DNA of 64,000 nucleotides from Nitrososphaera sp. (GCA_039938515.1 JBDUUL010000015.1:248001-312000), one strand, 5' to 3'; positions 46,001 through 55,446 are shown, counted from the stretch's first letter. The notes: generated from the sequence alone by a model not told the origin. Program-made: numbers and translations.

Positions 46001-46270
46001 ATGAAAGGTGAACAGGTGCAGTGCACGCACCTAAAGACCGTGAACCAGAGCATCAAGGGAAACACCAAGGGCTGCGAGGAATGCGAGAAAATCGGTTCAA
46101 CGTGGGTCCACCTGAGGCTATGCCTGACATGCGGCCACGTCGGATGCTGCGATTCGTCGCCTAACAAGCACGGAACAAAACACTTCCACCAAACGAATCA
46201 CCCCATTATCAAGTCCTACGAGCCGGGCGAAGACTGGGAATGGTGCTACATCGACAAGGTTTATTTGTAA
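46001..46270 (+). CDS. UBP-type zinc-finger protein, paralog of 55109-55387
   Basis: 89 residues made entirely of one ZnF-UBP domain: CTHLK, GCEECEKIGSTWVHLRLC, LTCGHVGCCDSSPNKHGTKH then HPIIKSYEPGEDWEWCY. All eight expected Cys/His ligands are in place. In eukaryotes this fold binds the C-terminus of ubiquitin; in archaea the ligand is unknown. The paralog is 65% or more similar by eye over the finger. Strong TATA box upstream. Confidence 0.92.
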   Translation: MKGEQVQCTHLKTVNQSIKGNTKGCEECEKIGSTWVHLRLCLTCGHVGCCDSSPNKHGTKHFHQTNHPIIKSYEPGEDWEWCYIDKVYL

Positions 46271-47982: not shown

Positions 47983-48660
47983 TTGCGAGTGAGCAGGGAA
48001 AACGGGAGGATTTGCACGCTGTATTCGGTCAAGATTGTCCAGTTTATCGCTATAGCCATTCTAGCCATCGGCTCTGTCGCCACAGGCATGGCCTTGTACG
48101 GGTCTCTAGTGGCGCTGCCGCCTGCCCTAAACGGCATAGACCAGACGGCAGGCTACCTGAGCAGCTTTCAAATCCCGAATGTCTCCGGGCAGGTTGGAAC
48201 AGCCGCCGACAACCTGCGAAACGCCTCGTCAAACATCCAGGGTGCAGGAAACAACCTGAAGGCAACGGCCGACAGCATGCCGTGCGCTTTTGGCTGCAGC
48301 GTCGCAGGAATCAAGATCATTGACCTCAGCCAAATGAGGTCAAACCTTGAAAACACCGCAACAAATCTGCAGGGACTGGGTTCAAACGGCCTTGCCCTTG
48401 CAGGCAACGTCGACAACTTGGGCAACAGCATTGGCTCTACATCGCAGAGCATAGAGAATCAGGTGCACCAAGCAGGCTATAATCTGTACAATGTCAAAGC
48501 CGTGTTTCAGTTTGGGCTTTTGTCGATTCTGGCCATCGCTATCGTCGGCGTACTTTCCGGCGCCGGTCTGCTTTTACTGGCTACAAGGATGAACAGGATA
48601 CTCTTGGACCACCTGTCTGCAAGGGACAGCCAAACAGGGGCCGACAGTTCAGCCGCGTAA
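47983..48660 (+). CDS. Two-span membrane protein with extracellular helical region (SPFH cluster)
   Basis: 225 residues. An N-terminal membrane helix (about 19-42, FIAIAILAIGSVATGMALYG) and a C-terminal helix (about 178-202). The loop between is about 130 residues, predicted helical, with a CAFGC and repeats such as LRNASSNIQGAGNNLKATAD and LENTATNLQGLGSNG, like methyl-accepting or pilin-type extracytoplasmic coils. First gene of a four-gene cluster with an SPFH protein. TTG start; a GTG two codons later is possible. Confidence 0.75.
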   Translation: MRVSRENGRICTLYSVKIVQFIAIAILAIGSVATGMALYGSLVALPPALNGIDQTAGYLSSFQIPNVSGQVGTAADNLRNASSNIQGAGNNLKATADSMPCAFGCSVAGIKIIDLSQMRSNLENTATNLQGLGSNGLALAGNVDNLGNSIGSTSQSIENQVHQAGYNLYNVKAVFQFGLLSILAIAIVGVLSGAGLLLLATRMNRILLDHLSARDSQTGADSSAA

Positions 48661-48705
48661 TCATGGACGCCAGCCTGATGAGCCTGGTAAAGGGACTCAG
48701 GCGAG

Positions 48706-49374
48706 ATGCAGGGTTGCGAAATGGTGCATGGCCAAGCAGGTGCCCCCCTTTTGCGGCCAATGGACCACAGGCATTGGGAGCAACCCGCCAAGTTTATTAT
48801 CGTCAACGGCGAATTCTCTACGAGTCGCACACAATTGTCAGCAGGCAACCCTGACCTGAGACGCCAGGTCGAAGAAAACAGAGGCCCGCTAAAGAAGCTT
48901 CAGCTCCTGATCCCCGGCCTCAACAGCTACAGGAGAAGCGAGGATATCCGCGTCGCAGACGAACTTTTGCGCAACCAGGTCGCAGACAAGCTTGACCTCT
49001 CGAGGGAAAACCTTGAAGGGCTGAGAAAGCAGATGGCAAACGCGGGCGATTTTACAAACTTGTCTTCAGTCGGATCGCTTATTTTTCAAATCCAGCAGTT
49101 TTCGGGCGAAGTGCGCCACGCGCAGCAGGGCTATTCCGGCCTGGCGGCATCAATAAGCATTGATGAGGCAAAGCTGAACAGCCTTTACGAGTATGACTAT
49201 GAATTTGTCAGCTCCTCGATATCCGTACTTGGCAGCACCTCTGCCCTTGTTTATGACCCTTCATCACCCGGCAACATACTTGCGGCGCTATCAACCATCA
49301 GCCACAACCTTTCAGATCTAAAGCGCAAGTGGTCCATAAGGATGGAAGCAGTCAGTAACATCCAGCTAAAATAA
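48706..49374 (+). CDS. Helical protein in SPFH cluster
   Basis: 222 residues from the first ATG; alternatives are M6 and M19 (MDHRHWEQPAKFII). Predominantly helical with long amphipathic stretches (RRQVEENRGPLKKLQLLIPG, LRNQVADKLDLSRENLEGLR, IFQIQQFSGEVRHAQQGY). Ends 10 nt before the SPFH gene. Bacterial SPFH loci often contain a comparable helical partner, but no family was assigned here. Probably cytoplasmic, membrane-associated through the complex. Confidence 0.7.
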   Translation: MQGCEMVHGQAGAPLLRPMDHRHWEQPAKFIIVNGEFSTSRTQLSAGNPDLRRQVEENRGPLKKLQLLIPGLNSYRRSEDIRVADELLRNQVADKLDLSRENLEGLRKQMANAGDFTNLSSVGSLIFQIQQFSGEVRHAQQGYSGLAASISIDEAKLNSLYEYDYEFVSSSISVLGSTSALVYDPSSPGNILAALSTISHNLSDLKRKWSIRMEAVSNIQLK

Positions 49375-49384
49375 CTGTGGGAAA

Positions 49385-50491
49385 GTGAAAATGTTTCACA
49401 GGCATCCAGACAAAAACGAAGGCGGGAGCGACATTCCCGCCCAGGGAGGCAGCGTCCTTGGCTCTATCACGATAAACTGGGAGGACCAGTACAAGCAGAA
49501 TAACGTCATGTGGAAAGTGCCGCGCAACATAAGGCTTAACGACAACATTGTGGTGCGCGAAGACGAAATCGCGGTCTTTTACCGCGACGGCAAGGTGCTG
49601 ACTTACTTTGACCAGCCAAACCGCTATGCGCTGACCAGTATCAATGCCCCCATAGTCGGCAGCCTCCTAAAATATTTCACGGGCGTCCAGCAGCAGGCCG
49701 AGGTCTATTACCTTCAGAAGCGTTTCATGGACGGCAAGTTTGGAAGCACACAGCCGTACCAGTTCATTGACCAGCTCTTTGGAATAGTGAACCTCAGGGT
49801 ATATGGCGAATACAGATGGAGGGTGTCATCGCCGGAGAACTTTATCAACCAGTTTGTCGGCACCTTCAACCTCGAAACTTCCGACCAGATCGAAGGCAGG
49901 CTGCGTGAGCAACTGGTCGTGCTTGTTTATAGCGCAATCGGCAAGATGAAGGCGCAGGGAATGAAAGTCACCGACCTTGCTCCAAACCTTACAAGCATCG
50001 AGCAGGTGGTGCTCTCCACCTCACCTGACAACTTTGGCCAGTACGGGGTAGAGATTAACAAGATCTCCGGTCTTACCATAAGCCTTCCAGACGAAGTTCA
50101 AAAGGCAATTGACACCAGGTCGGAAATGTCCGTCCTCGGCGTCAATTACATGCAGTACCAGGCAGGCCAGGCAATGACAGAGGCTGCGAGCAATCCGTCC
50201 GGGGGCGCAGGCTCGCTCGCCGGCCTTGGAGCAGGGTTTGGCGCTGGCAGCGGAATCGGCTACGCAATGGGCGGACAGATGGCACAAGGCATGAACCAGC
50301 CGCCCTCAAAGAGCTGCATAAAATGCGGCACAATTATCTCGGCGTCGAACAATTTCTGTCCAAACTGCGGCGCTGATCAGAAGCAGACTCCCTCCCAGCA
50401 GCAGGGTGCCAAATTCTGCCCTAACTGCGGCTCGACCGTCTCTGCAGGCTCAAAATTCTGCGCAAACTGCGGAAACAAAATCGCGGTGTAG
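49385..50491 (+). CDS. SPFH/Band-7-like protein with C-terminal zinc ribbons
   Basis: 368 residues. The SPFH/YdjI-type core spans about 20-265: ITINWEDQYKQNNVMWKVP, NIVVREDEIAVFYRDGKVL, a positively charged linker, and the C-terminal ALGIEVEKI-like VEINKISGLTISLPDEV. A Gly/Ala-rich hinge (GAGSLAGLGAGFGAGS) leads to two tandem CxxC ribbons (CIKCG-CPNCG and CPNCG-CANCG). It follows the helical gene by 10 nt and precedes the zinc-ribbon gene by 8 nt. SPFH proteins form membrane microdomain cages. Confidence 0.88.
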   Translation: MKMFHRHPDKNEGGSDIPAQGGSVLGSITINWEDQYKQNNVMWKVPRNIRLNDNIVVREDEIAVFYRDGKVLTYFDQPNRYALTSINAPIVGSLLKYFTGVQQQAEVYYLQKRFMDGKFGSTQPYQFIDQLFGIVNLRVYGEYRWRVSSPENFINQFVGTFNLETSDQIEGRLREQLVVLVYSAIGKMKAQGMKVTDLAPNLTSIEQVVLSTSPDNFGQYGVEINKISGLTISLPDEVQKAIDTRSEMSVLGVNYMQYQAGQAMTEAASNPSGGAGSLAGLGAGFGAGSGIGYAMGGQMAQGMNQPPSKSCIKCGTIISASNNFCPNCGADQKQTPSQQQGAKFCPNCGSTVSAGSKFCANCGNKIAV

Positions 50492-50499
50492 GCGAAAAG

Positions 50500-51516
50500 A
50501 TGCCATTCTACTGTACCAAATGTGGAACCCAGCTTCCAGACGGCGCTGCCTTCTGCCTAAAGTGCGGTACCAACCAGCAGCAATCGGCCACAAGCCCTCC
50601 GCAGCAAGTTATTGCTTCTCCGGTCGCCAGCCAGCTAAAGTGCTCAAGCTGCGGTGCCCCTATCACGCCTAAGTTCGGCGAGATGGTCATCGCCTGTGAA
50701 TACTGCGGCACAAGCATCACGCTTGGAACCGAAGGATGGAAGAACATACAAAAGCACACCATGCTTGCGGCAAAGGTGCGCGACAAGGACAAGATTACTG
50801 GCATAATCCACGATGTAATGGACAAGGGAATTTTCAGGCACCACCTGCAGGAGAGCTCTACACTCGAGGAAATGAACCTGAGCTACATACCTTATTGGAT
50901 CGTCCCCGTGTCCGCTAGAACTGAGATCATATCTGTTGACACCGCGAGCGAGGCCGGCTCGATAGCCACGACCGCGGCGCTTCTGGCAGTGATGGGCGGT
51001 TTGGGAAGCCAGCGAGGAGGCCGCGGAGGGTTTGGAATGGGAGGCGGTGGCCTGCTGGGGGGAGCGATGCTTGGAGGCATGATGGCCGGAGGCGGTGGCC
51101 TAATCGGTGGCGGGATGAATCAGAAAAGAACATACAAGCTTGATCAGAACTACAACTATCCTGTCGTCGCCCTCAAAGCCCTTACGGAGTACCAGCCGCA
51201 CGATTACAACTTTTCGCTGGACGATAGAAAGTTGTTCGACGCCTCGACCTTTGACAAGAGCATCAAGGCGCTAAACGGCGACATCAGCGAGGACATGGCC
51301 AAGTACCAGGCCAAGACGTATGTGGACCAGCGGCAGTCCGAGCGCGCTCATGCGCAGTACCACATGATCCAGCAGATTCATACAGAGATGGAAGTTGCGG
51401 AGGCTGAATTGCTCCATGCACCCATCTGGTTCGCCCGTTACGATCACAAGGGCAATAAGATAATCTTTGTAATTGACGCAAATTCAGGAACGCCAATAAA
51501 CAGTATCGGCATCTGA
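50500..51516 (+). CDS. Zinc-ribbon protein with Gly-rich linker (SPFH cluster)
   Basis: 338 residues. A first ribbon CTKCG-CLKCG and a second CSSCG-CEYCG precede about 80 residues of helical region with TITLGTEGWKNIQKHTMLAA. Then comes a Gly/Met-rich stretch (about 168-205, GGRGGFGMGGGGLLGGAML) that could be flexible or interact with a membrane. The C-terminal part (about 215-338) ends in strands LLHAPIWFARYDHKGNKIIF. Only 8 nt after the SPFH gene, so clearly co-translated. Probably recruits partners to the SPFH assembly (inference). Confidence 0.8.
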   Translation: MPFYCTKCGTQLPDGAAFCLKCGTNQQQSATSPPQQVIASPVASQLKCSSCGAPITPKFGEMVIACEYCGTSITLGTEGWKNIQKHTMLAAKVRDKDKITGIIHDVMDKGIFRHHLQESSTLEEMNLSYIPYWIVPVSARTEIISVDTASEAGSIATTAALLAVMGGLGSQRGGRGGFGMGGGGLLGGAMLGGMMAGGGGLIGGGMNQKRTYKLDQNYNYPVVALKALTEYQPHDYNFSLDDRKLFDASTFDKSIKALNGDISEDMAKYQAKTYVDQRQSERAHAQYHMIQQIHTEMEVAEAELLHAPIWFARYDHKGNKIIFVIDANSGTPINSIGI

Positions 51517-55108: not shown

Positions 55109-55387
55109 TTAGAGATATGTCTCGTCGACGTAGCACCACTTCCAGTTCTCGCCCGGCTCGTACGACTTGATTATGGGGTGCCTTGAGTGCTTGAAGTGCT
55201 TGGTTGCATGCTTGTTGGGCGACGAATCGCAGCAACCTACGTGGCCGCAGGTAAGACATAGCCTCAGTTTCACCCAGCCGGAGCCGAGCTTTTCGCATTC
55301 CTCGCAACCCTTTGTGTTGCCGGCTATGTCCGGGTTTATCTTGACAATATGCTCGCACTGAACGGTTTCTGCGCTGCGTCTTACCAT
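55109..55387 (-). CDS. UBP-type zinc-finger protein, paralog of 46001-46270
   Basis: 92 residues from the ATG MVRRSAETVQCEHIVK; the frame reaches 55408. Complete ZnF-UBP pattern: CEHI, GCEECEKLGSGWVKLRLC, LTCGHVGCCDSSPNKHATKH then RHPIIKSYEPGENWKWCY. It is nearly identical to the other copy in the finger, but with Lys/Arg at the exposed edge where the other has His/Gln. Ubiquitin-like ligand unknown. Confidence 0.92.
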   Translation of the reverse strand: MVRRSAETVQCEHIVKINPDIAGNTKGCEECEKLGSGWVKLRLCLTCGHVGCCDSSPNKHATKHFKHSRHPIIKSYEPGENWKWCYVDETYL

Positions 55388-55446
55388 GCAGAACTCATGC
55401 ACAAACACCTAGTTAAGCGGTTCAAAGGCTCTTCCGCATCTTATGC

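Follow-up and report, generated by a model that had tools for sequence, protein, structure and literature searches.

A three-gene archaeal operon encoding a YdjI-type SPFH protein, a helical partner and a double-zinc-ribbon protein in Nitrososphaera sp.

The window is a stretch of 64,000 nucleotides (nt) from Nitrososphaera sp. (GCA_039938515.1, JBDUUL010000015.1:248001-312000); positions are counted from its first letter. It carries three consecutive plus-strand genes whose products are a 179-amino-acid (aa) protein modelled as four helices and read as the partner of the SPFH protein (gene 2, 48835..49374; orthologue starts, AlphaFold2 and profile), a YdjI-type SPFH protein (gene 3, 49391..50491; Pfam and relatives' starts) and a YdjG-like protein that combines two zinc ribbons with a beta-rich domain (gene 4, 50500..51516; Pfam, AlphaFold2 and bacterial counterparts). 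An earlier note on this DNA, made from the sequence alone, had described these genes and the gene that precedes them on the same strand, gene 1, as one four-gene operon. All four open reading frames (ORFs) are present where the note placed them. The order of genes 2, 3 and 4 is conserved far beyond chance; the position of gene 1 is not conserved. The genomic evidence that the conserved archaeal operon has three genes, and not four, is strong.

Gene order was read in 80 named archaeal loci, in which the relatives were found by their SPFH domain in contigs (68-87% identity). A gene 2 homologue lies directly upstream of the SPFH gene in 79 of them, the sole exception (L065) being a contig that begins 35 nt before the SPFH ORF, and a gene 4 homologue lies downstream in 69; the spacings are mostly -4 to 50 nt. 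Sixty loci, sampled across the families of Thermoproteota, were read fully. The SPFH ORF lies inside the stretch read in 58 of these and is adjacent to gene 2 in 54, the gap being typically -1 to 50 nt; in 31, the same strand carries zinc-ribbon homologues no more than 4 kb away, in many cases two in tandem and in some cases upstream. This comparison across archaea strengthens the three-gene reading, and the conserved order, together with the match of gene 3 to PF13421, bears out the earlier description of an uncharacterised archaeal SPFH/zinc-ribbon operon of the YdjI type.

The two upstream genes of the unit also occur together across genomes. The gene-2 profile matches 154/300 genomes of Thermoproteota, at a single locus in nearly all, and 61/194 genomes of Thermoplasmatota, the phylum of a Thermoplasmata relative. 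Co-occurrence with the SPFH gene is near one-to-one: a strong PF13421 match is found in 145 of the 149 listed gene-2 genomes (same 300 Thermoproteota), and the other four carry weaker or fragmentary SPFH matches. Three SPFH genomes that are not on the list of gene-2 places are present in the gene-2 genome table (one of them, G263, only at E=3e-4). Where both genes were mapped (145 genomes), the SPFH gene is directly downstream of gene 2 and on the same strand in 126; the remaining pairs mostly lie within about 4 kb of each other or are separated by contig ends.

The start of gene 2 is the TTG at 48835 and not position 48706, as orthologues begin at that residue. The distance between genes 1 and 2 is 174 nt; the value of 45 nt given in the earlier note was wrong because the start of gene 2 had been misplaced. 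The start of gene 3 is probably the ATG at 49391, where its relatives begin, which leaves 16 nt after gene 2 (a GTG in the same frame, at 49385, could be the start instead). The gap of 8 nt between genes 3 and 4 stands as described. A TATA-like box, TTTATTAT (48793..48800, plus strand, consensus match), lies between genes 1 and 2, 42 nt before the TTG, and the nearest relative (L030) has the same motif in the same place. Such a motif occurs at -50..-20 of gene 2 in 30/78 loci, where 300 shuffles give an expectation of 8.2 and a maximum of 14, and upstream of the SPFH gene in just 3/79. The motif was scored as a consensus match only and the loci are related to one another, so that the enrichment is support and not proof. 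The box is likely to be the promoter of the three-gene operon, with a predicted transcript start near 48820.

Gene 1 (47983..48660, plus strand) encodes a membrane protein that has two spans and an outer loop of helical character. Its hydrophobic spans are visible as two Kyte-Doolittle (KD) peaks, at about residues 9-45 and 169-203, in agreement with the two spans described before; no Pfam family matches it over the cut-off. The earlier view, in which gene 1 would be the membrane sensor or anchor of a four-gene operon, draws on its adjacency, its strand and its coding-like codon-position GC, and on the small membrane proteins that adjoin the module in other archaeal lineages. It is opposed by the lack of a gene 1 homologue in all 80 named SPFH loci, by a search of 200 genomes of the class, which returned only the genome of the window and one weak partial match (E=1.8e-5), and by the 174-nt gap with its promoter-like box. 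A sensor role within the operon is very hard to sustain on these counts and is the least probable of the readings weighed here. Gene 1 is an unrelated hitchhiker outside the operon, since it has no homologue in module loci and is nearly absent from the class; gene 2, in contrast, is not a hitchhiker. Gene 1 is nevertheless probably a real, lineage-restricted gene, as its codon-position GC is coding-like.

The product of gene 3 consists of an SPFH domain (PF13421 Band_7_1; E=1.9e-32, 113 bits against a Pfam cut-off of 24), a Gly/Ala-rich linker and two C-terminal zinc ribbons with four CxxC motifs (CIKC...CPNC and CPNC...CANC, 50315..50482, plus strand; Zn_Ribbon_1 and DZR over cut-off). The earlier identification of an SPFH protein with two zinc ribbons is thus confirmed. 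The B. subtilis control matches the same PF13421 profile. Four or six CxxC motifs (two or three ribbons) are found in 78/80 SPFH relatives. No KD window exceeds 1.6 and the protein has no transmembrane (TM) span. YdjI of B. subtilis is a soluble protein with a zinc finger at its C terminus, and it reaches the membrane solely with YdjG and YdjH (PMC8581546). Gene 3 fits the YdjI type: its product is soluble, carries C-terminal ribbons and is encoded beside a YdjG-like gene (69/80 loci).

The product of gene 4 begins with two zinc ribbons, as does YdjG (two CxxC...CxxC pairs, CTKC...CLKC and CSSC...CEYC, 50512..50706, plus strand; Pfam and CxxC count). The cysteines of the second ribbon are invariant in 47 sequences. 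The AlphaFold2 model has a confident beta-rich domain broken by a disordered Gly/Ala/Met-rich loop (50971..51111, plus strand), in which the predicted local distance difference test (pLDDT) score is below 50 over most of residues 158-204. Zinc ribbons and a Gly-rich character had already been described for this protein, and both were found. The Gly-rich loop is kept in nearly all relatives and is a candidate for a segment contacting the membrane or a partner. No TM helix is present (KD maximum 1.39), and the YpeB structure 5boi comes up only at E=6.7. According to PMC11237479, YdjG of B. subtilis combines two zinc ribbons with a domain related to YpeB and a TM segment. Given that description and the bacterial homologues, 'YdjG-like protein lacking the TM segment' is the most fitting name for the product of gene 4. 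In other loci gene 4 is commonly duplicated in tandem; one genome of Thermoproteota has six gene-4-like zinc-ribbon ORFs in a tandem row ahead of gene 2 and the SPFH gene (L152:42-5763).

The ribbons could also be read as nucleic-acid-binding, in a transcription-related complex in which they would bind DNA or RNA and the SPFH protein would merely tether them. DNA binding has been suggested for YdjG (PMC9239133), and TFIIB-type ribbons are found, weakly, in the bacterial partners. The ribbons here, however, are of the short generic Zn_Ribbon_1/DZR type, which often binds protein, and the genes that recur beside the module include no regulator, polymerase or repair gene. This reading is considered very improbable.

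The product of gene 2 has no TM span (KD) and is modelled by AlphaFold2 as a four-helix arrangement (pLDDT 80; predicted template modelling score 0.76), so that its earlier description as helical and soluble holds. The family motif PGxxxYR..ED.R..D..LR is conserved. No Pfam family matches over the cut-off. NCBIfam NF047596, LIMLP_15305 of Leptospira, is the one relative that bears a name; gene 2 matches it with 36.7 bits (E=3.7e-9), far short of the equivalog cut-off of 210 bits, and 46/54 members of the gene-2 family match it as well (best E=2.8e-18). By these profile matches gene 2 belongs to the same homologous superfamily and not to that equivalog. The mention of LIMLP_15305 in PMC7567364 gives no functional information. 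Identity with PspA or ESCRT-III was considered and rejected: neither is among the 50 PDB matches listed for the model, none of which falls below E=0.1, and the gene-2 profile does not match the PspA of the genome. A search of the PDB for homologues of gene 2 gave only matches of coiled-coil and designed-bundle composition, which were not retained. One gene-2 homologue carries an additional N-terminal zinc ribbon (L109:2182-2880), and therefore every part of the module can carry ribbons.

In B. subtilis, YdjI is needed for the localisation of PspA, which it brings to the membrane (PMC8581546). An accessory role in the phage-shock response, in which the SPFH complex would recruit PspA to the stressed membrane as YdjI does, could be supposed on this ground and because the genome of the window encodes a PspA. 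That gene, however, is on another contig (G000:C10:132276-132959, L212), with no linkage to the SPFH operon; a gene for an ArsA/GET3-like ATPase precedes it, and one for a 158-aa protein that looks like the PspAA partner follows. PspA is found over the Pfam cut-off in 7/300 genomes of Thermoproteota, 2 of which carry the module; it is missing from 152/154 genomes with gene 2, and there is no association (Fisher p=0.27). Sulfolobus acidocaldarius, for example, has a PF13421 protein and lacks PspA. Neither pspA nor pspC is among the genes of the window that were scanned, no PspA was seen in the related loci, and YdjH/TPM is absent. Recruitment of PspA cannot be a general function of the SPFH protein of the module, because almost all genomes with the module lack PspA. 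The SPFH module is shown to be independent of PspA. The link to phage-shock loci made in the earlier note is largely refuted for the phylum, and an accessory role in the phage-shock response is considered improbable.

The reading favoured here, with slightly better than even confidence, takes genes 2-3-4 (48835-51516) jointly as one transcription unit and as the archaeal equivalent of the YdjI/YdjG pair of B. subtilis with a dedicated helical subunit, forming a PspA-independent membrane scaffold. In the proposed mechanism, the SPFH protein, which has no membrane span, would use its SPFH domain to form oligomers, shaped as an arc or a ring, that lie against the cytoplasmic side of the membrane. 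The obligate adaptor or assembly partner of the SPFH protein would be the four-helix protein, and the double-zinc-ribbon protein, with the ribbons of the SPFH protein, would provide a cytosolic docking surface for clients or membrane partners. A physical complex, its ring form, its association with the membrane and a role in membrane integrity or in the assembly of membrane complexes are all inferred. Gene 2 is read as a dedicated adaptor or assembly factor because it is tied to the SPFH gene in gene order and in phylogenetic profile.

Small proteins with 2-4 TM segments (about 110-140 aa) are encoded in or near the gene 2-SPFH unit in 27 of the 60 sampled loci, which belong to other archaeal families; this fits a membrane-docked complex. 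These proteins (loci L140-L199) are of at least two unrelated sequence types, match no Pfam family over the cut-off and are possible lineage-specific membrane anchors.

Several results weigh against the scaffold. In the clade of the window, the three operon products all lack a TM span, and 73 loci contain no TM gene within 60 nt upstream; the association with the membrane therefore rests on homology. The fold of the gene 2 model matches nothing in the PDB below E=0.1, so that the adaptor role is guessed from the arrangement of the genes and their joint occurrence. For gene 4, no PDB fold matches the YdjG-like beta domain either, and the similarity of gene 4 to the bacterial zinc-ribbon-TM partners is piecewise.

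The same genes could instead encode a constitutive assembly or quality-control scaffold of the HflK/C or prohibitin kind, which would corral membrane proteins or a membrane protease, use the ribbons as client-binding arms and take no part in a stress response. HflC chains are the sole SPFH relatives of solved structure that were found by profile, weakly (E=0.02); chaperone-like assembly roles have been proposed for band-7 proteins and related partners (PMC11237479); and the module is single-copy in many families, as expected of a housekeeping function. No protease or respiratory gene recurs beside the module, however, and its distribution is patchy: it is missing from most of the genus of the window and, in family f9, from other genera that were sampled. 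A constitutive role is accordingly regarded as unlikely, while being the most credible of the alternatives to the PspA-independent scaffold with a dedicated helical subunit.

This patchiness close to home is seen in the absence of the module from most of the genus of the window and in its restriction, within f9, to one sampled genus, whose SPFH protein is 97.5% identical to that of a named Nitrosotalea. In a quick SPFH tree (few starred branches; root arbitrary) the sequence of the window groups with another metagenome-assembled genome (MAG) of Nitrososphaeraceae, and 16 sequences of Thermoplasmatota form one clade nested among Nitrososphaeria; this nesting suggests transfer between phyla.

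The operon resembles B. subtilis pspA-ydjGHI in that a soluble PF13421 SPFH protein with one or more C-terminal ribbons is encoded beside a double-zinc-ribbon protein with an extra domain. It differs in lacking PspA and YdjH/TPM (no TPM domain in the four proteins); in the counterpart of YdjG, which in the clade of the window has no TM helix and has a Gly-rich loop; and in the addition of an obligate helical protein that has no ydj counterpart. Plasmid pairs of Paracoccus, Comamonas and Vibrio likewise have an SPFH gene followed directly by a gene for a homologous zinc-ribbon protein, which, unlike the product of gene 4, has a TM helix at its end. Near eight such plasmid SPFH loci no gene-2 homologue was found, nor was one found on bacterial plasmids with one archaeal query. 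This comparison with bacterial SPFH-zinc-ribbon loci adds to the case for three genes. The Meth_adaptin ESCRT loci (PMC10936438) also encode an archaeal SPFH protein with a zinc ribbon, there in a membrane-remodelling gene context; the locus of the window, in contrast, showed no gene for ESCRT, adaptin, GOLD or Vps4, and none is prominent among the recurrent neighbours in the sampled loci.

Other observations concern single loci or the surroundings. In family f19 (L185-L187), a gene for a protein of 320-340 aa with weak TPR/MIT-like matches lies between the SPFH and zinc-ribbon genes. Two contigs of Candidatus Nitrosotalea sp. TS (L071 and L072) bear SPFH domains identical to each other, and the neighbouring genes in L072 look broken; this reflects a recent duplication or else an artefact of the assembly. 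Many of the close relatives (L030-L109), in several phyla, bear names that point to acidic habitats (Nitrosotalea, Gagatemarchaeum from bog, Marsarchaeota, Sysuiplasma, acid-soil and mine-drainage MAGs); the habitat is presumed from the names, and distant module families need not be acidophilic. In the window, the region is flanked by genes for two paralogous small Cys/His-rich proteins (LRLCLTCGHVGCCDSSPNKH...; 46001-46270, plus strand; 55109-55408, minus strand) that resemble the UBP-type zinc finger. A PADLOC scan for defence systems gave no meaningful match.

The SPFH/zinc-ribbon core is known from YdjI/YdjG; the obligate helical partner family is undescribed. The YdjI type of SPFH protein is known chiefly for assisting PspA, and the core is kept here in about half of the sampled Thermoproteota, nearly all of which lack PspA. 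The gene-2 family, to which no function is attached, gains a strong genetic partner in the SPFH protein. It is possible, though held at somewhat less than even confidence, that archaeal YdjI-type SPFH proteins are PspA-independent membrane scaffolds with an obligate four-helix partner, and that the coupling to PspA in Bacillus would be the addition of one lineage to an older SPFH/zinc-ribbon core. The finding raises the question of the role of YdjI-type SPFH proteins where PspA is absent.

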